Assembly: GCF_964656455.1 (NCBI RefSeq)
Contig: NC_135720.1
Coordinates: forward strand, 102,374,696 to 102,438,695
Source: Halichoerus grypus
Taxonomy: Eukaryota; Chordata; Mammalia; Carnivora; Phocidae
DNA: 64,000 nucleotides
Direction: 5' to 3'
Part shown: piece after piece, positions 4,701 through 61,395 of the stretch
Layout: each line of letters opens with the position of its first letter
Position numbering within the stretch: the stretch's first letter is position 1
Translations under genes and position numbers: made by a program
Notes under the pieces: model-generated
The model's database searches: none
Seen by the model: the letters and a program-made list of their open reading frames with translations, nothing else
Told to the model about the DNA's origin: nothing

Positions 4701-7700
4701 GCTTCAGTGGTGTCAATTCTGGACAACGCCTTGTCCCTGTTACTGGAGAGCCATTTCAAGGTGTCCAGTTCCACAATGGAGGTATGATCTGTGCTTATAG
4801 GACTCCCTTTAGAGGCTCAATCTCTCAGGAGGAAGGACAAAAGCCCGAGTTGAAGTCTCACTAATGGGAAAAGAATGAAGGGTTATGGAACAATCGTTGT
4901 GTGAGCCTTATTGCGTCCTCCACAGTGTACCAAAAACTCATGGAATCAATTATGTGAGTTCAAAGCAAGAGGGAGCCACCTCTAGGCAGGCTTAGAGGAG
5001 AGGTGAGCATCTGCACCAAATGACACTGTATGACACAGGTTCCCACTGTTTAATGTCTTTGCAGTTGTCTTTTCTGTGGCTATGAGCTCTGACTTTAATA
5101 GCGTATATTTTAAGAACTTCCTCTTTTCAACTGGAGAATTCATGATTTAGTTGGGTATTTAAAAGTTAGCTTAAATTTTATGCAAATAAAACTTGCTTAA
5201 CTAAGAAATGCAAATAGGCAAAAAAAAAATGATATCGTAATCTGGTCACCCTAGAGTAGCCACTGCTTGCATTTTAGGTATCATCTCAGTGCCTAGAAAA
5301 TGAAGAGTAACACATAGCAGGTGCTCAATAAATATTTGTTAAATAAAAGTCCTTCCAAACATTTTGGACGTGTGCATTTTATATGTTAAAGTGTATAATA
5401 TTTTTGCAAAAGTGGATTATAGAATTACACTGTTACGTATCACATGATTATACTTTAGCTATATAAGTTGACATTATGTCAGAGATGACATTAAATATAA
5501 ATAAGTTAAAACCCTGTGAATCAAAGAGAAGATGCTCAAATTTGTTTTGTTTTGTTTTTTTCAAAAGCCTGACCTTGTGTTGTTTACAAGAAACCAACTA
5601 AAACAAAATGACACAGAAAGTCTAAAAATAAAATGAAGGGCACAAACAGAGCAGGCAAACAGAAACCAAAAGAAGGCAGAGGTTAGGGGGCAGTAAAAGA
5701 AACATGCTATGGGATTCGGGGCCAGAAGCCACAGAGGGCTCATTTAGGGTAAGACTCGGTCAGAGTGATGATGCCTGGGGCAGAATGCCTGGGAACCAGA
5801 GCTCTAAGCCAGAGACAGGACCCTGTTGGGGAAAGCAGCACATTTCAAGGACTTGTTTGGAAAAGGAATCTCTTAAACTAAGACTGACTCTTAAAACCCA
5901 CAACAGTTCCATGTTTCTCAGTCACTTGTCCGGTGCTTAAGGATTTTTGCTTTATATTCTCTTATTTTGCTTTATATTCTCTTCTATTAATTCATAAATC
6001 CACGTGAAATACAACTTGAATGTCCATGACAGGAATTTAGAACTTCCGATGTTAGCGAAACAAACATAACGTTGGAAAGCAGTTGAGAATAATGTCTCAC
6101 TCTCTGAGCCTAAGCCTGAACAGTGAGACGGGCATGTTTGTCATCTCTGAGGAAGGAAGTTGGCCCTGATGCAGTGCACATCACAGGATTCTTTCTCAGC
6201 TATGCTGGAACCCCAGTGTGCATAGGAATGCCCTGGGGAGATCACTCTGCAACTTATATGATTCCGCTGACCCAAGTTTCTTAACCCAAAGCTTTCTCTT
6301 CCACTGTGCAGAGTGACTAAACTGATTTTCGCCGATGAGTTTGCTGTGGTCCTCATCTGGGCCAACTCTCTGGGCAATTGTGCTGACCCTAATACTAATG
6401 ACTAGCCCCTCCTAGTGCTCTGACCTGCTTATTCAAAACACAAACTGACTTTCGTCCTTGTATCTCAGGATGTCATCAGTATAGCTGACCACATCCTGAA
6501 CTCAACATCAATAACCAACTGGACAGTGTTACTGCAGGAAGAACAGCATGCCAGCTCACGGTTACTGAAGACACTGGAAAATATCAGTAGCCTCGTACCT
6601 CCAACAGCTCTGCCTCTGAATTTTTCTAGGGAATTCATTAACTGGGAAGCTATTCCTGCGTCCCAAAGCCAACTCAAGATGGGTTACAACTATCAGACTG
6701 AAATGCTCCCCCCAAATGCCTCCATTCCCGTCAGAGGCCGTGTGTTAATTGAGTCAGGCCAATTCCGGTGGCCCCTTCCAGACACTATTATCAGCATGAC
6801 CTCGTTGACCCTGGGGAATATCCTATCTGTTACCAAAAATGGAAATGCTCAGGTCAATGGGCCCATGATATCCACGATCATTCAAAACTATTCCATAAAT
6901 GAGATTTTTCTGATTTTTTCCAAGATAGAGTCAAATCTGAGCCAGCCTTATTGTGTGTTTTGGGATTTCAGTGGTTTGCAGTGGAACAATGCAGGCTGCC
7001 ACCTGGTGAACGAAACTCCAGACACGGTGATGTGCCGATGTACTCACCTGACCTCCTTCTCCGTACTGATGTCACCCTTTGTCCCCCCTGCCTTCATCCC
7101 CGTGGTGAAATGGATCACCTTTGTGGGACTGGGCATCTCCATTGGAAGTCTCACCTTATGCCTGATCATTGAAGCTCTATTTTGGAAGCAGGTCAAGAAA
7201 AACCAAACCTCCTATACACGTCATGTTTGCATGGTGAACATAGCCCTGTGCCTCCTCATTGCTGATGTTTGGTTTCTTGTCGCTGCCACTGGAGGCTCCA
7301 GCGTAGACCTTCCCGGAGTCTGTATAGCTGCAGTGTTCTTCATGCACTTTTTCTACCTCTCCTTGTTCTTTTGGACGCTCACGCTCGGCATCCTGCTGGC
7401 GTATCGGATCCTCCTCGTGTTCCATCACATGGCCATGCCTTCAATGATGGCTGTCGGCTTCTGCCTGGGCTATGGGTGCCCTCTAGTCATATCTGTCATC
7501 ACGATTGCAGTCACACAGCCAAGCAATAACTACAAAAGGAAAGACGCGTGTTGGCTTAACTGGTCTGATAGGAGCAAACCCCTCTTGGCCTTTGCTGTTC
7601 CTGCACTGACTGTTGTGGCTGTGAATTTGGTGGTGGTGTTCTTAGTTCTCACGAAGCTCTGGAGGCCCACTGTTGGAGAAAGACCCGGTCAGGAGAACAA

Positions 7701-10700
7701 GGTCACTATTGTCCGCATGGGGAAGAGCCTTCTCATCCTGACCCCTCTGCTGGGGCTCACCTGGGGCTTTGGCATAGGAACAATGGTGGACAACCGGAAC
7801 CTGGCTTGGCATGTTATTTTTGCATTACTCAATGCATTCCAGGTGAGAACAATAAAAATAGCTTTTTTCTTTTTTTTTTTTTAAGAATGACTTCTTATAT
7901 CATCAGGTGACTGGAATCATTAGAGAGAACTGAGGTTGGTAACACCACTCTGGAGGCTATCGCGTCTCCCCGCCTCCAGCAGGCCTGTAACAGCAATGCC
8001 TGGCAACAGTGAATAGAAAACAAATACATAAACAGACAGCAGGATCCGTATTTTCCAGCAGTTATTCTCATACTGAAGCAGAATATTAGGCTTCTTCAGG
8101 AATCCATCCTAGGATTATAAACGTTTGAGTTCATAGAGCTAATGTTAATGCCTCTTGATGCCAACCCAGTCCTCTTTCTCTTGGGCAGACCTCTGCAAAA
8201 GCACACAGGGAAAGGGAAAGAACTCAGGAGTGTGTGTTGACTCTGAACGGTGGGCGAGAAGTCTCTGGAGCACAACAGAGCAGGATCTGGCAAACTGTAG
8301 CCAGCTCTGTTTTTGTCAATAAAGTTTTATTGGAGCACAGCCATGCCCATTGGTGTAGATACGGTCTGTGGCTGCTTTCTTTACCCTGACAAAGTTGAGC
8401 AGGGCCACCCGTACGCCCCGCAGAGCCTAAGACGTGTCCTGTCTGGCTCTTCGCAGGAAAAGTTTGCCTACATCTGCTGCAGAGCATGGGTTTTACATTC
8501 CATAATCAAAACGTGTTCAGAGGGTAGGTGGACAAAGGAATCTCTAGGTTTCCCTGAGTCTGGAAGAGAGCCTTTAATCTTGGTTCAATGAAAGTTTGCT
8601 GGTCACCTCTGCACAGTGATTCAGGGCAGGGGTGCTTAAACGTTTGAGCTGTGGAGTTAAATAGGTCTGGGCTCAAATATGTCACGTTATCAACTGTGAC
8701 CTCTAAAAAATTACTTAACGTCTCTTTCAGTTCTCTCATCTGTTAGACAGGGATAATATTATTACCTATATCATAAAGTAAATTAAATGACATAATTTAG
8801 CTCTCAGCACAGTGCCTGGCATGTAGGAAGTGCTAATCTGTCTTCTAAAAGCATATTGAATGGAGCACTGGGTGTTATACGCAAACAATGAATCATGGAA
8901 CACTACATCAAAAACTAGTGATGTAATGTATGGTGATTAAAATAATAAAATAAAATTAAAAAAATAAAAGCAGCTGGTTCTACAGCTACATCAGCACACC
9001 AGTGAACGTTTCGGTGCTGGGTACAGATGGCAAGCCCCGGGAGCACGTGCCTACTGATGGCAGGTGTAGGGGGCTTCTGCCTAGAGCAGGTCCATGGGGA
9101 AATGCGTGGGAACAGGCATCCACTGAGGGTGTTCTGACTGGGAGGAAGATCTCCAGGTCTAAGAAAGCCTCTGCCAAGAGTTCCCTAAGGGCTGGACGTG
9201 ATGGAAAGGGTGCAGATATAGGTCCTCTGCTTAGGGTTGGACCTCAGTGCCTGCTCCCGTCACAGATTTACATGCACTTAGTAAATGTTTATTTAATGCC
9301 TGCTCTAAAGAAAGACTAAGCTATAGAAGCAAATGGAAATTATTTGTTTGGCGTTTAGGATGACACAAAGGGGAAAAGAAAGCTCCGCATGCATTTAAAA
9401 CCTTATTCACTCATTTATTTGTTTATACCTTCAACAAAAACATTTTTTTTTTTTTTTTTGGAGTGCTTTCTTTGTGTTATGCCAGGCATGGTGGAGTCAG
9501 CCTGTGTCCTTGCCTTTGAGGAGTCCGAGTGATAGAATAGTATTCTATTCTATTGGGTGATAGAATAGTATTACACAGCAATGCTTTCTTCTCTGAAGAA
9601 GAAAAGACCACACAGGTGATTTATTCCTTTTTTTTTTTTTTTAAGGGTTTTTTCATCTTATGTTTTGGAATGCTCTTGGACAGTAAGGTAGGTGTGTTGA
9701 TTTCTCTCTTTACCTCCTTCTTCTAATCCAGGCATCCAGCCCTTCCCCTTCAGTTCTAGGCTCTTACTCACATATAAGAGGTGAGACCATGGGTACTCTT
9801 GTCATCAAATTCTATAATTTTATAAAAGCCAGACTCAGTGAAAACGCTCACTGTTGATAGGAAAACTATATAGAACTAATCACAAATATATAATGTGCTG
9901 ATAAGAAAACAATATAGAACTAATCACAACATATAATCTAAACATTATAGAAAAAAGGGAAATTGTTTTTACTTTTCATTTTGCTACTTTAATCTATGGT
10001 TTGGCAATCATCAAAGAGCAAAATTACTTTCTGGAGGGGTGGATTCCCTTTTGGTCTTTTATTAAATGCATGCATTTGCATAGAATACGCTGAAAGATGT
10101 ATCTACTTCTACATTTCTGGAGTTTTATATGGTAAATATAAATAGCCTTTAACATTAAATAAAATCTCTAATGAAGGATGACCAATATAAGGAAAAGATG
10201 ATAGAAAAAATTTATATAAACTTGTTTCATTATTTTTCCCAAGCGTTGAGCAATTCTGTTGAGAGAGGGAAAGACAGTAAGCAAACTAAGTGATAGAGAC
10301 TTTGTTTTTAATAAGAAGATAAGAAGATTTTATAATTAGCACAATTGTAGCACATACACAAAATCCCTGTTTACAAAGAAGCAATTTGCTGTTCTTGATT
10401 GGACTGAATAATTCTCTCAATGGCACTATTCACATGGTTAGGAAACTCTTTACTTCAGAGATAAATTTCAATTTAGCAATTATTGCCAATTACTATTGTC
10501 TAGAATCTGAATTACTATGGCTTTTGGTACTGTTTTTTTGTTTAAATCTAGATTTGTTTATAGGTAAAGCAAACAAATAAAAGAAATCTTTTCATCAGAT
10601 AGCCATGCTGATGGTCTATTAAGTGCTTCCAGGAAATACCTCTATTAAGTAACATTCCCAATCTGCAGTTTTGTTCTGGATTTGTCTATTATGATTGTAT

Positions 10701-13700: not shown

Positions 13701-16700
13701 AATAGAAGCTAATTCTTTCCAATATTCCTAGTGTCTAGCACACGGTGGTACTCAATAGGAGATGTGAAATTAATGAATAAACCAATTAACAAGTGGACAA
13801 AGACACAATGTATCTTTTTTTTTTTTTAATTTTTTTTATTGTTATGTTAATCCCCATACATTACATCATTAGTTTTAGATATAGTGTTCCATGATTCATT
13901 GTTTGTGCATAACACCCAGTGCTCCATGCAGAACGTGCCCTCCTCAATACCCATCACCAGGCTAACCCATCCTCCCAACCCCCTCCCCTCTAGAACCCTC
14001 AGTTTGTTTTTCAGAGTCCATTGTCTCTCATGGTTCTTCTCCCCCTACGATTTCCCCCCCTTCATTCTTCCCCTCCTGCTACATTCTTCTTCTTCTTCTT
14101 TTCTTTCTTAACATATATTGCATTATTTGTTTCAGAGGTACAGATCTGAGATTCAACAGTCCTGCACAATTCACAGCGCTTACCAGAACACATACCCTCC
14201 CCAGTGTCCATCACCCAGTCACCCCATCCCTCCCACCCCACCCCCCACTCCAGCAACCCTCAGTTTGTTTCCTGAGATTAAGAATTCCTCATATCAGTGA
14301 GGTCATATGATACATGTCTTTCTCTGTTTGACTTATTTCGCTCAGCATAATACCCTCCAGTTCCATCCACGTCGTATCTTAAACCTCTACCTTTCCCCAT
14401 AAGTACATGTTTTTTATTTAAGTATTTTATTTCCATTAGATAATTCAGTTTTCAAAATTTGGAACTCCGTTTAGCCTCTGTTCCAGTTACTAAAAGATTA
14501 TTCACAAAGGGATTTGAATGCTAAGATGAGTGAGAATAAGGCGAAGTTTTATTTGAGACCATTTTTATAGAACTATTGTTTTTTTCTCAATGGGCTCCTC
14601 TTCTAGAGAGAAATGTGTGAACCAAAGAAATGTAAGCACGGACGTGCAAAAAGATAATGCTTTCCTTAAAACTGCTTTCTCGTTTGTTGTTAAAAGTTGT
14701 GAGAATAAACAGGAACACAAGATTCACTTAGAAATACATTCTTAGGCATTTTAAATAGATAAAAGCCAGAGAAAGGGTAAGAAAGGAGTACTCTAATTTC
14801 TTGAAAAGAGAATAGGGCACCACATAAGTGAAGTAAAGAATCGCTAATGACATTAAGATGTTGGGAAATGCAGAGCATGACTAGAAGAATACTACTAATG
14901 TCCGAACGACTTGTTTTTCTTTGATGCAGCAAGACTCATCAGATGTATCTGCCAAACCCAAATTCCCAAAACCTTTCAACCCATTGCAGAGCAAAGGTGA
15001 GTTAACAGTAAGCCAGATGTTAATAAAAAGTGGAAGAATGTGAATATATCATATGAGGAAAACTGAAGGGCTACTTTTAAATTTATTTTTATTTATTTTT
15101 TATTATTTGAGGGAGAGAGCGCACAAGTAGGGGGGAGGGGCAGAGGGAGAGGGAGAAACAGACTCCTCCCTGAGCAGGGAGCCGGATGCGGGACTCAGTC
15201 CCAGGACCCTGGGATCATGGCCTAAGCTGAAGGCAGACACTTGACCAACTGAACCACCCAGGCACTCCTGAAAGTCTACTGTTTTTTTTTTTAATTTAAT
15301 TTTATTATGTTATGTTAGTCACCATTCATTACATCATTAGTTTTTGATGTAGTGTTCCATGATTCGTTATTTGCATATAACACCCAGTGCTCCATTCAAT
15401 ACGTGCCCTCCTTAATACCCATCACCAGGCTAACCCATCCCCCCACCTCCCTCCCCTCTAGAACCCTCAGTTTGTTTCTCAGAGTCCATAGTCTCTCATG
15501 GTTTATCTCTGCCTCTGATTTTCCCCCCTCCATTTTTCCCTGAAGGTCTACTGTTAAAAACCTCACGTGAGAAGTGCAGTAGAATCAGTTGGCCATGTTT
15601 CTGGAGCTCATCTGGATGGTGCTCAGGGCTGATAGAACATGGTCGGGAAGTTGATGCTCATGGAGACCACTATTGTCCCTTTTAATTTCATCACAAATGG
15701 CAGCCATTTCCTCACTTAGACATTCTATAAATCCGTGACATTGATCATTGGGGTCATGGGGTGCAGGAATGTGGTTAGACGAACACCAATTGTGTCTTGA
15801 CTGGAGAGTTACCCTTCTTGTGCCAGCTGCTGAGCAGTGGGCATGGGCCAGGTATTTGTCCCCCAACAGACATACCCTCTCAAATGTTCCCGCCACGGAA
15901 GAAGCCACCACCTGCTATGGGTGAGAAAGCACTCTCCCCTCCACCTGTGACATGCATTGTTTTTATGCTCATATATTGGCTGTTGTTAAAGTCAATGATA
16001 TTCAGCTCCTGGAAGACTGCTATGTAAGCATTGCAAATAGTCGCCCTATGCCTGGAGGAGAAGAGTGGAGCATGGGAGGTGAGGAAGAGTCCCTGCATTA
16101 CAATTCAAGCTAAAGTCATCTTTAAGTGCCCAAGTTCCATTTCATGTTAAATTATGTTAATATCTTTATTAAAGCAGGGAAATGGGCCTCTCATTTTAGA
16201 TTGCAAGCAAAATTATTTGACTTCTAAAATAAAGTTCAAGGTTCTGAACTTGAAAAGGCACTTGCCTCCCAAAATGTTCAGCATGCTCACCCAGAAGACA
16301 TGGGTCCCGTTATCACTGTCACCAACCAGCCTGAGTGCTTTTTACAAACCTCTCAACTTTTTGAATATTTGTCCTTCAGGAGTAGAATGAAAAACGAAGA
16401 GACCACGAAATTTCCTTCTAGCAATAACATTTTATGATCTCAAATCTACTTTATCTCATTTCCCAGCAGTATCTGAAAGATGTGATGGTTCTCTTCTCAA
16501 ATGAGAGATGTCTGACAAATGCAGGTCTCTTTGGCATTAATGAAATACTGTCAACCAATTGCCTTCTGTAGCCTTCCCATCTTCCCAGAACTGGCCAGAG
16601 TTGTAAGGAGTTGCACAGGCTTATTTTCATTTTGGTCTCATGCTTGATTCCAACATAGAAACAGTAACTCTTATCCTCTCTTTCCTCTCTTAGGCATTTA

Positions 16701-24266: not shown

Positions 24267-26528
24267 TTTTTTTTTTTTTTTAATTTTTTTATTGTTATGT
24301 TAATCCCCATACATTACATCATTAGTTTTAGATGTAGTGTTCCATGATTCATTGTTTGTGCGTTAACACCCAGTGCTCCATGCAGAACGTGCCCTCTTTA
24401 ATACCCATCACCAGGCTAACCCATCCTCCCACCCCCATCCCCTCTAGAACCCTCAGTTTGTTTTTCAGAGTCCATCGTGTCTCATGGTTTGTCTCTCCCT
24501 CCGATTTCCCCCCCTTCATTCTTCCCCTCCTGCTATCTTCTTCTTTTTTTTTTCTTAACATATATTGCATTATTTGTTTCAGATGTACAGATCTGAGATT
24601 CAACAGTCTTGCACAATTCACAGCACTTACCAGAGCACATACCCTCCCCAGTGTCTATCACCCAGTCACCCCATCCCTCCCACCCCACCCCCCACTCCAG
24701 CAACCCTCAGTTTCCTGAGATTAAGAATTCCTCATATCAGTGAGGTCATATGATACATGTCTTTCTCTGTTTGACTTATTTCGCTCAGCATAATACCCTC
24801 CAGTTCCATCCACATCATTGCAAATGGCAAGATCTCGTTCCTTTTGATGGCTGCATAATATTCCATTGTATATATATATATACCACATCTTCTTTATCCA
24901 TTCATCTGTCGATGGACATCTTGGCTCTTTCCACAGTTTGGCTATTGTGGACATTGCTGCTATAAACATCGGGGTGCACGTACCCTTTTGGATCCCTACT
25001 TTTGTATCTTTGGGGTAAATACCCAGTAGTGCAATTGCTGGATGGTATGGTAGCTCTATTTTCAACTTTTTGAGGAACCTCCATACTGTTTTGCAGAGTG
25101 GCTGCACCAGCTTGCATTCCCACCAACAGTGTAGGAGGGTTCCCCTTTCTCCGCATCCCCGCCAACATCTGTCATTTCCTAACTTGCTAATTTTAGCCAT
25201 TCTGACTGGTGTGAAGTGGTATCTCATTGAGGTTTTGATTTGGATTTCCCTGATGCCGAGCAATGTTGAGCACTTTTTCATGTGTCTGTTGGCCATTTGG
25301 ATGTCTTCTTTGGAAAAATGTCTGTTCATGTCTTCTGCCCATTTCTTGATTGGATTATTTGCTCTTTGGGTGTTGAGTTTGATAAGTTCTTTATAGATTT
25401 TGGATACTAGCCCTTTATCTGATACGTCATTTGCAAATATCTTCTCCCATTCTGTCGGTTGTCTTTTGGTTTTGTTGACTGTTTCCTTTGCTTTGCAAAA
25501 GCTTTTTATCTTGATGAATTCCCAATAGTTCATTTTTGCCCTTGCTTCCCTTGCCTTTGGCGATGTTTCTAGGAAGAAGCTGCTGCGGCTGAGGTCGAAG
25601 AGGTTGCTGCCTGTGTTCTCCTTTAGGATTTTGATGGACTCCTGTCTCACATTGAGGTCTTTCAACCATTTGGAGTCTATTTTTGTGTGTGGTGTAAGGA
25701 AATGGTCCAGTTTCATTCTTCTGCATGTGGCTATCCAATTTTCCCAACACCATTTGTTAAAGAGACTGTCTTTCTTCCATTGGACATTCTTTCCTGCTTT
25801 GTCAAAGATTAGTTGACGATAGAGTTGAGGGTCCATTTCTGGGCTCTCTATTCTGGTCCATTGATCTATGTGTCTGTTTTTGTGCCAGTACCATACTGTC
25901 TTGATGATGACAGCTTTGTAGTAGAGCTGGAAGTCCGGAATTGTGATGCCGCCAGCTTTGCTTTTCTTTTTCAACATTCCTCTGGCTATTCGGGGTCTTT
26001 TCTGGTTCCATACAAATTTTAGGATTATTTGTTCATTTCTTTGAAAAAAGTGGATGGTATTTTGATGGGGATTGCATTGAATGTGTAGATTGCTCTAGGT
26101 AGCATTGACATCTTCACAATATTTGTTCTTCCAATCCATGAGCATGGAACGTTTTTCCATTTCTTTGTGTCTTCCTCAATTTCTTTCATGAGTATTTTAT
26201 AGTTTTCTGAGTACAGATCCTTTGCCTCTTTGGTTAGATTTATTCCTAGGTATCTTATGGTTTTGGGTGCAATTGTAAATGGGATCGACTCCTTAATTTC
26301 TCTTTCTTCTGTCTTGTTGGTGGTGTATAGGAATGCCACTGACTTCTGTGCATTGATTTTATATCCTGCCACTTTACTGAATTCCTGTATGAGTTCTAGC
26401 AGTTTTGGGGTGGAGTCTTTGGGGTTTTCCACATTAAGTATCATATCAGCTGCAAAGAGTGAGAGTTTGACTTCTTCTTTGCGATTTGGATGCCTTTTCT
26501 TTTTGTTGTCTGATTGCTGTGGCTAGGA
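24267..26528 (-). mobile_element. LINE-1, 5'-truncated, about 2.26 kb, minus strand
   Basis: It comprises poly(T), the caniform L1 3' UTR (24280-24720) and the 3' half of ORF2 up to 26528. A perfect 17-bp duplication GAAGGCTGCCTGCTTCT flanks it at 24250-24266 and 26529-26545. The reconstructed empty site GCTTCT/AAGCC fits the L1 endonuclease consensus. The intact duplication and long open frames show a fairly recent insertion. Confidence 0.97.
24721..26444 (-). pseudogene. LINE-1 ORF2 C-terminal part, frameshifted
   Basis: Two open frames carry the C-terminal half of L1 ORF2p: 26444-26025 (end of the reverse transcriptase, with [13 protein letters not shown]) and 25977-24721 (418 codons, from [16 protein letters not shown] through the cysteine-rich C-terminus [18 protein letters not shown]). 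They are in different frames; a small deletion near 26020, in an AACAAA-type repeat just after KEMNK, separates them. The endonuclease domain and the catalytic part of the reverse transcriptase are absent through 5' truncation, so the copy cannot move by itself. Confidence 0.93.
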
Positions 26529-39329: not shown

Positions 39330-39675
39330 CAGAGGTTTTTAAGCATGGTCCAGTGATTAGAGTTTCTGAGAAATCTTTGAGGTCAAATCTATTTTCAACA
39401 TAACATTAAAATATAATTTGTCTTTTTTACTCTCATTTTCTTGTATTCATATGATGAGACTTTCCAAAGGCTGCATGACAGGTTGAATACAGAAGTAAAT
39501 ATGAGGATCCAGCTATCTTCTATTAAACACAAAGAGGTTTGCAAAAATGTAAACCAATGCCACTCTTGTCACTCACTTTGTTTTTGTTCTGGAAAGCACA
39601 ATTATTTTTCATAAAAATGTTATTTTTGTTAACATGTGATGGGTAGATTATTGCCATTTTAAATGATTTACCAAA
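39330..39675. repeat. Old DNA transposon relic, left half
   Basis: 'gaggtcaaatctattttcaacataacattaaaatataatttg' resembles a common old hAT-type element. Its continuation ('aattaccaaatatattttttccatttcagatttaattcctaaaatgg' to 'gacaagtgtgagaagcactag') is at 41401-41530, so the intervening L1 split it. Confidence 0.55.
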
Positions 39676-40360
39676 AATAAAGAACAAAACTGGAGGTATC
39701 ACAATCCTAGATTTCAAGATATGCTACAAAGTTGTAGTAATCAAAACAGTATGGTACTGATACAAAACAGACACATAGATCAGTGGAATGGAATGAAAGC
39801 CCAGAAATAAACCCATGATTAAATGGTCAATTAATGTACAACAAAGGAGGCAAGAATATGCAGTAGGAAAAAGTCTCTTCAACAAGTGATGTTGGGAAAA
39901 ACTGGACAGCTACATGCAAAATAATGAAACTGGACCACTTTCTTTAAACCATACACAAAAATAAACTCAAAATAGATTAAAGATCTCAATGTATTACTTG
40001 AAGCCATGAAAATCCTAGAAGAGAACACAGGCAGTAATTTCTCTGACATTGGACGTAGCTAAATTTTTCTAGATATGCCTCCCAGGCAAGGGAAACAAAA
40101 GCAAAAATAAACCATTGGGACTATATCTATATCAAAATAAAAATCTTCTGCACAGCAAAGAAAACGATCAACAAAACAAGAAAACAACCTACTGAATGGG
40201 AGAAGATATTTGCAAATGACATATCTGATAAGGGATTAGTATCCAAAGTATATAAAGAACTTATATAACTCAACACCAAAAAATAATCCAATTAAAAATG
40301 GGCAGAAAACATGAACAGATATTTTTCCAAGGAAGACAAACAGATGACAAATAGACACAT

Positions 40361-40723
40361 GAGGAATGAGTTAAAGACAGCCCTACCTTTCCAGCCCAAG
40401 AACTGGAGGAATAGCCATGCTATTAGCAAAAGGGCTAACATCAGAGGAATCGGCTTCATTAACACATTCAGAATAGGTTGAAATGTTAGCATTGCAGGCA
40501 AAATCATTTTAAAGGAGGACATTTGGTCTCTGCAAAGAAATAGAACTACCACTGTAAAAGCTTATAATTTTTGCCTTAGTCCTTCTTGATAATTTAAGTG
40601 GCATGACAAAATGGCTTTTGTCTTCCAAACATATTTATTTACAGATATAAATTTTAAAATCAAGTCCAGTTGTTTCTTCTTCCATGAAGCTTTAGCTGAT
40701 CCTTTCAACCAGAGGATACCTCC
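40361..40723. other. Chimeric templated insertion inside L1
   Basis: Bases 40361-40652 match 49849-50140 directly, 292 bp with about seven substitutions and no indel. Bases 40652-40723 match the reverse complement of 49511-49582, 72 bp with one substitution. L1 sequence resumes at once on both sides ('agacacatga' before, 'gggaaatgcaaatgaaaacc' after), with a short L1 piece of some tens of bases apparently lost. There is no poly(A) and no target duplication, so it is not a retroposon. Confidence 0.92.
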
Positions 40724-41033
40724 TCACAAGGGAAATGCAAATGAAAACCACAGTGAGATATCACCTCACGCCTGTGAAACAAGTATTGGCAAGGATGAGG
40801 AGAAAAGGAACCCTCATGCACACTAGTAAAGATACTGTGGAAAACAGTATGGAGGTTCCTCAAAAAATTAAAAATAGAATTACCATATGATCCAATAATT
40901 CTACTGCTTGGTATTTGCTTATTCAAAAAGATACATGCACCCCTATGTTTATTGTAACATTGTTTACAATAGCCAAATTATGGAAGCAGCCCAATTGTCT
41001 ATCCATAGATGAATGGATAAAGAAGATGTGGCA

Positions 41034-41036
<3 letters not shown>

Positions 41037-41080
<44 letters not shown>
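41037..41080. repeat. (AT)22 microsatellite
   Basis: Forty-four bases of perfect AT dinucleotide, at the place where L1 ORF2 normally carries a short TATA run. Confidence 0.98.
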
Positions 41081-41082
<2 letters not shown>

Positions 41083-42023
41083 CATTATATATAATGGAAC
41101 ATTACTCAGCCATAAAAGAAAATGAAATCTTGCCATTTGCAACATGGACAGATCTAGAGGGTATGATGTTAAGTGAAGTAAGTCAGTCAGAGAAAGACAA
41201 ATACTATTTGATTTCACTCACGTTGGGGGATGGGTGAAACAGGTGAAGGAGATTAAGAGCACACTTATCATGATGAGCACTGAGTAATGTATAGAACTGT
41301 GGAATCACTATATTGTACACCTGAAGCTAAGATAATACTGCATGTTAATTATACTGAAATTAAAAAAATAAAATGAGATAAAATAAAATGAATTACCAAA
41401 TATATTTTTTCCATTTCAGATTTAATTCCTAAAATGGTGATTATTGATAAACATTAAGAGTATAAGAACATAAGCACAAAAAAGGCTCTAATTTTTAATG
41501 TCAGGAATTCCTGAGACAAGTGTGAGAAGCACTAGTTTCAACAAAAGAAATGTTTCCAGCAAAACTTGATAGGAGAAAATGTATCTTATCACAATGCTTC
41601 ATTTGGACTGATAGACCTTTTTATTTGCACTGTTAGCATTATGGGGGGAAAAAACTCACTCAATTGAGCTTTCCAGATGAGTGACTTATTAAGTACTTCC
41701 TCACTCATGGGCTAGAGAATAAAAATGTCATTGGCAGACTGTACTCTTCCTGGAAGGTGGAACCCTGAGAGCCAGGAAGAGACAGCCAGACCACATTTGG
41801 AATACAGGTCGAGTTTAAAGTGCTCCTACTTTGTGCTCCTAAGGAACCAGGGAGAAAATTATCTTCTCAGGCATGTGAGCCCCTTAACCCTAGACCTCGG
41901 TCTCAAGGGAAAACTGTGTCTCCTCTTTTGTTTTCAGGCTCAGCTCTCTCTTGCTTTTTGAATATATTTCAAAGGGTTTGAGAAGTGATGACTATGAGGG
42001 CTGCGGGCAGAACACAACTGCTT

Positions 42024-49510: not shown

Positions 49511-50140
49511 GGAGGTATCCTCTGGTTGAAAGGATCAGCTAAAGCTTCGTGGAAGAAGAAACAACTGGACTTGATTTTAAAAGAATGTATAAGATATCCA
49601 TAAGTGAAAATCAGGCTGAGATTTTGAAGAATTAGTGTGGTACCAATGCATGGTTTGACTTGAATAGGAGAGAGCCTGGGAGAAGGGTACACAATTTAGA
49701 AACCTATTTAGAAGTCTACAGGTGAAGTAATGATGGCTAAACTAAGGAAGTGTTAGCAAGGACCAAAAGGCAGAGGACAGATAGGAAGGACATTGCTGAG
49801 CTAAGACTGCCAGGACTTGGTAACTGACATCCATCATGAGATGAAGGAGAGGAATGAGTTAAAGACAGCCCTACCTTTCCAGCCCAAGAACTGGAGGAAG
49901 AGCCATGCTATTAGCAAAAGGGCTAACATCAGAGGAAGCGGCTTCATTAACACATTCAGAATAGGCTGAAATGTTAGCATTGCAGGCAAAATCATTTTAA
50001 AGGTGGAGATTTGGTCTCTGCAAAGAAATAGAACTACCACTGCAAAAGCTTATAATTTTTGCCTTAGTCCTTCTTGATAATTTAAGTGGCATGACAAAAT
50101 AGCTTTTGTCTTCCAAACATATTTATTTACAGATATAAAT
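49511..50140. other. Source locus of the 40.4-kb templated block
   Basis: Two parts, 49511-49582 and 49849-50140, recur in rearranged form at 40361-40723. Here they are separated by 266 bp of ordinary-looking DNA. Both copies share a minus-strand open frame (MVVLFLCRDQ start), but this follows from the duplication and is not evidence of a gene. Confidence 0.85.
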
Positions 50141-50264
50141 ATTGGAATGGATGTTAATGCACCAATGAGAGATGTCCTTTAAAATTTTAATTTAAAGGTA
50201 TCTTTGCATGAAGGTTTCTGGGCATTTTAATAAAACCAATAAAACCTCTGCCTTCTATCTATCT

Positions 50265-61213: not shown

Positions 61214-61395
61214 AGAGAAAAACAGCTAATGGAACAAGACTAGCCTCACCTCTAATGTAGGTGGGGCCAAAGCTGTCAGGACAGATTCTCCCTTCCAAAG
61301 GCACAGAGAAAAACAGCTAATGGAACAAGACTAGCCTCACCTCTAATGTAGGTGGGGCCAAAGCTGTCAGGACAGATTCTCCCTTCCAAAGGCAC
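61214..61395. repeat. Perfect 91-bp tandem duplication
   Basis: Bases 61214-61304 and 61305-61395 are identical (each starts AGAGAAAAACAGCTAATGG and ends CTTCCAAAGGCAC). No mobile element is visible at either edge. Confidence 0.97.

Follow-up and report, generated by a model that had tools for sequence, protein, structure and literature searches.

A two-piece block within an old L1 of Halichoerus grypus, probably a patch copied from a nearby locus during break repair

Introduction

How does an old L1 come to carry a block of 363 bp whose two parts both derive from one locus about 9 kb away, one of them in inverted orientation? Such a block lies at 40361–40723 of the stretch of 64,000 nucleotides of Halichoerus grypus analyzed here (the window, positions 102374696–102438695 of contig C9). 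It had been pointed out in an original prediction made from the letters alone, which ascribed it to microhomology-mediated break repair with template switching rather than to retrotransposition. We compared the block with its sources, with the genome (2,400,014,138 bases in 170 contigs), and with related L1 copies, and conclude that it is most probably a patch copied from the nearby locus during the repair of a break in the L1.

Results

The block is a mosaic of two copied pieces, which are arranged as follows (all coordinates are those of the window):

40361–40652, plus strand: piece A of the block, a direct copy of 49849–50140 with 7 mismatches in 292 positions and no gaps
40653–40723, minus strand: piece B of the block, an inverted copy of 49511–49581 (49511–49582 including the T at 40652) with 1 mismatch in 72 positions and no gaps
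40652, no strand: joint between A and B, a single T compatible with both templates, both sources being aligned across the joint
40361–40362, no strand: left joint, GA compatible with the L1 and with the source of A

Depending on the assignment of the T at the joint, piece B is 71–72 bp long. In total, 8 of 363 positions differ between the block and its sources (2.2%), without any indel, and the two block/source pairs reach BLAST E values of 1e-142 and 9e-31 within the window, which excludes a chance origin of this likeness. The alignment thus confirms the predicted mosaic of a 292-bp direct and a 72-bp inverted copy (∼98% identity, no indels), together with the shared bases that had been proposed for it, about one T at the inner joint and about 2 bp at the left edge. 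The eight differences are separated by gaps of 4–72 bp and are not clustered (smallest gap, P = 0.48), and the divergence of the two pieces is statistically indistinguishable in what is a weak test, with one difference in B (Fisher P = 1.0). No ORF of at least 110 aa overlaps the block, and its joint sequence has no exact match in viral contigs. A structured-RNA origin was also checked and dropped, as the window contains no Rfam match at the gathering score.

The locus from which both pieces derive is organized as follows:

49511–49582, plus strand: source of piece B, for which the genome search gave no second copy other than that in the block
49583–49848, plus strand: spacer of 266 bp between the source pieces, missing from the block
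49849–50140, plus strand: source of piece A, likewise without a second copy in the genome search other than that in the block

The order at the source is therefore B-A, with 266 bp in between, and that in the block is A followed by inverted B. Since the source pieces remain in place, they were copied and not moved; this, and the fact that the L1 is interrupted and has lost bases, supports the predicted direction of copying, from 49.5–50.1 kb into the L1. Used as a genome query, the 363-bp block gave three matches (itself and the sources of A and B), and a 931-bp source query including the spacer, with E values up to 10 allowed, found nothing beyond its own locus and pieces A and B, in a search that ignores very common words and limits scoring to the best candidates. 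There is therefore no sign of a dispersed repeat, further mosaic copies being absent from the three genome-search matches, and this reading, which had been named as the one that would count against the prediction, was dropped.

A self-comparison of 264 kb (the window and the preceding 200 kb), in which we retained pairs of at least 85% identity and at least 50 bp with a median self-coverage of up to 2, yielded three low-copy pairs, all of them inside the window: the two block/source pairs and one 91-bp tandem. The latter, at 61214–61395, is a perfect duplication of low-copy sequence (61214–61304 = 61305–61395) and is probably recent, as its copies are 100% identical.

The sequence that hosts the block is an L1, found on either side of it:

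39673–40362, plus strand: old L1 fragment from the ORF2 region, on the left side of the block, with 39 scored genome relatives 84–89% alike over its last 263 bp
40724–41218, plus strand: continuation of this L1 on the right side of the block, ∼21 bp having been lost in between

The best 40 of 8061 genome candidates were scored, corresponding to the L1 itself and to 39 relatives with a likeness of 84–89% over up to 263 bp. For the comparison of the entry point, 19 relatives, eight of them on the minus strand, were fetched as loci, and all could be aligned. The block is absent from all 19; the largest extra at this position is 3–4 bp each in L028 and L043, and L037 and L044 have 3 bp fewer according to the script reading. 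In 13 of the 19 relatives, 21 bp separate the left flank, ACACATGA, from the match to the right flank, which reads TCACAAGGG in the window and mostly TCATCAGGG in the relatives. Five more indicate a loss of 18–25 bp, and for L042 the script value of 36 was a mis-match, the alignment itself giving ∼21. The 19 relatives thus bear out that L1 bases were lost on entry, and put the loss at ∼21 bp, slightly below the "some tens" that had been predicted. The left flank continues as TGAAAA in 17 of the 19 relatives (TGAGGA in L041 and TGGAAA in L031), and hence the left overlap is the 2 bp GA; it might be longer if the host L1 resembled L041. At the right edge 0 bp are shared with the L1, since the base at this position is A in 19 of 19 relatives and C at the end of the block. 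A TA-repeat tract is found at 41038–41080, to the right of the block in the same L1.

The edges resemble random ones. Random joints of window sequence share 0, 1, 2, and 3 bp in 55, 28, 11, and 4% of cases, respectively, and three random joints share at least 3 bp in total in 35% of trials (P = 0.35), so that the 2 + 1 + 0 bp observed represent no excess of shared bases, a feature associated with MMBIR/FoSTeS. Because random joints give as much, these bases constitute no evidence for microhomology priming, which they neither support nor exclude, and blunt end joining accounts for the edges equally well. The "microhomology-mediated" part of the prediction thus finds no support. Blunt or 1–2 bp joints are, according to the authors of the study cited here, not uncommon at joints of replicative origin (PMC5120786).

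The two switch points do not appear to be brought together by single-strand folding: control placements were as close or closer in 47 of 60 cases on the plus strand and in 52 of 60 on the minus strand, and a fold-driven contact was therefore dropped. A short AT-rich hairpin with a perfect stem is present at 50176–50198, ∼35 bp past the end of source A. The 81-nt stretch with this hairpin, selected by eye, folds better than most of its shuffles (z of −2.56, 3 of 200); the hairpin was kept out of the evidence because it was picked by eye and because the stretch has a second hairpin.

The Jukes-Cantor distance between block and source is 0.0224, with a Poisson range of 0.95–4.3% (8/363). Neutral rates amount to 1.0–2.2 × 10^-9 per site and year. 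The block would thus be about 5–11 million years old, or 2–22 with counting error, assuming error-free synthesis and the neutral rates just given. The divergence of 2.2% between block and source, versus 11–16% between the host L1 and its scored relatives, is in keeping with an arrival of the block long after that of the L1 itself.

Block and source lie some 32–42 kb beyond an ORF at 6424–7884 that matches adhesion GPCR F1 in PDB (E 3e-249) and carries 7tm_2 and GPS domains; judging from this match, it would correspond to the C-terminal part of the receptor (GPS motif and seven-helix domain). Two repeat copies that are 94% alike are located at 13815–14373 and 24269–24816, with shorter relatives near 8854, 15280, 23598, and 42076, possibly representing a fairly young repeat family.

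Discussion

These observations are most simply explained by DNA copying at a fork or close to it and by the capture, at a break, of two fragments inverted relative to each other. A nascent strand would have copied ∼290 bp of 49.8–50.1 kb and, at 49.5 kb, ∼70 bp of the other strand, or else two such copied fragments would have been joined, and the resulting chimera would have been sealed into the break in the L1, with the loss of ∼21 bp of the latter. The break, the DNA template, the order of steps, and the single event are presumed; one event predicts the equal divergence of A and B (7/292 and 1/72). As in copied insertions, the source is identifiable and still in place, few L1 bases are lost, and no target-site duplication (TSD) is seen. 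Multiple template switches, including an inversion, are a feature of MMBIR/FoSTeS that is apparent as well, A(+) being followed by B(−). The compound copying that had been predicted is therefore upheld, without its microhomology-mediated character, and the block fits retrotransposition poorly, as had been claimed (for the context of these mechanisms, see also PMC7025897; PMC12583596).

The main rival is an RNA-templated patch formed without endonuclease, in which a minus-strand transcript of the source would have been reverse-transcribed, twin priming by the L1 ORF2 protein being one possibility, and the resulting cDNA would have been used at the break (class 2, or endonuclease-independent, insertion). 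It owes this rank to the arrangement of the pieces, as the 5′-inverted, twin-primed cDNA of a minus-strand transcript would also have the order A(+)-B(−). Class 2 insertions are moreover described as devoid of TSD, poly(A) signal, and tract, and as showing microdeletion and microhomology (PMC5110952). Yet an A-run is missing at both edges of the block, and the sequence at its right edge has no A/T-rich priming site. The donor, furthermore, is a neighbor on the same chromosome, at a distance of 9 kb, whereas the donors of experimental templated insertions, ascribed to RNA by their authors, were scattered over 18 of 24 human chromosomes with no obvious preference (PMC5110952). A random donor would fall within 9.5 kb in ∼1 in 100,000 cases (∼19 kb of 2.4 Gb), an argument that is weakened by ascertainment, since a single window reveals near donors only. 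On balance, we consider an RNA template unlikely.

A canonical target-primed L1 insertion with twin priming, whose TSD and poly(A) were lost later, would account for the order and orientation of the pieces and for nothing else. Class 1 insertions, produced by target-primed retrotransposition, are reported to leave a TSD and poly(A) (PMC5110952). At the block we found no TSD, poly(A), or endonuclease-like site: the longest word common to 40331–40362 and 40721–40760 measures 5 bp and is misplaced, neither edge carries an A-run, and bases were lost at the entry point instead of being duplicated, so that the absence of poly(A) and target duplication had been rightly noted in the prediction. As a divergence of 2.2% should not have erased a TSD or a tail, we regard such an origin as highly improbable. 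Two or more separate events, be it an ordinary local duplication with inversion and trimming at a later time, or a pair of insertions, are also improbable, if slightly less so: several would be needed, none left a trace, the source is whole, and A and B are equally diverged by the weak test given above. An assembly or haplotype artefact, finally, has very little to recommend it, given that the eight differences are spread over the block at gaps of 4–72 bp, that the L1 continues on both sides, and that the window lies inside a contig of 145 Mb.

A patch of two fragments copied at a break finds its closest parallel in yeast, where mutually inverted fragment pairs of one locus are reported as the commonest complex insertions at breaks in rad27 (15/23) and rtt105 (14/18) cells, and as rare in Dna2-deficient ones (9/144) (PMC11724301). 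Like these double ("distant") inverted insertions, the block consists of two mutually inverted fragments of one locus, and as in rtt105 the fragments, whose median length is 150 bp in that mutant, overlap little or not at all, and the edges share 0–4 bp (PMC11724301). Differences are found in the inner joint, which shares 1 bp here and a median of 6 bp (2–11) in the yeast insertions described, and in the gap between the source fragments, which is 266 bp here versus 30–119 bp in rtt105 and 2–20 bp in rad27 (PMC11724301). The present case also concerns a mammalian genome, a break that was not induced, and a same-chromosome donor at a distance of 9 kb, unlike the yeast experiments (PMC11724301).

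Several classes of mammalian insertions share part of these features. MMBIR-linked germ-line insertions detected in human fibroblasts are likewise nearby copies, some of them from several templates with changes of direction, complex events making up 33 of 103 and 26 of 99 templated insertions in two people; the tool used there requires an inverted template within 100 bp, versus 8.8–9.2 kb here (PMC8421209). Human constitutional templated insertions attributed to MMBIR/FoSTeS are alike in size (e.g., 376 bp), in their blunt or 1–3 bp joints, and in the deletion at the insertion site described for basic cases; they differ in accompanying large copy-number changes (PMC5120786), whereas the 91-bp tandem is the only other low-copy duplicated segment found within our 264 kb. 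Class 2 templated sequence insertion polymorphisms resemble the block in lacking TSD and poly(A), and in their microdeletion and break-repair edges, but have distant donors, thought to be RNA, whereas the donor is local and in two pieces here (PMC5110952). Complex duplications among human insertions likewise combine nearby sequence copied in forward and in inverted orientation, in a catalogue limited to donors within 2 kb (PMC12350158). The short-range template switches of great apes, finally, also use a nearby template, although one within ∼100 nt, the longest copy in the gold-standard set measuring 128 nt (PMC7954356).

The block is thus a new example of a repair product of a known kind, ordinary in its class and unusually clean in its form. 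Donor, recipient, both joints, and lost bases can be read in one window, which makes it a clean, roughly datable, and entirely local record of repair by copying, even though a single case leaves established views unchanged. By analogy, and only tentatively given its 1-bp inner joint and 266-bp gap, it might be regarded as the natural equivalent, in the mammalian germ line, of the inverted two-fragment insertions found at induced breaks in yeast. If so, copies of one locus could be joined end to end and, with no priming by microhomology, serve as a patch at a break 9 kb distant. A census of similar blocks in mammal genomes could show if there is a preference for local donors and for mutual inversion, and a bias of this kind would separate DNA-templated from RNA-templated patching.
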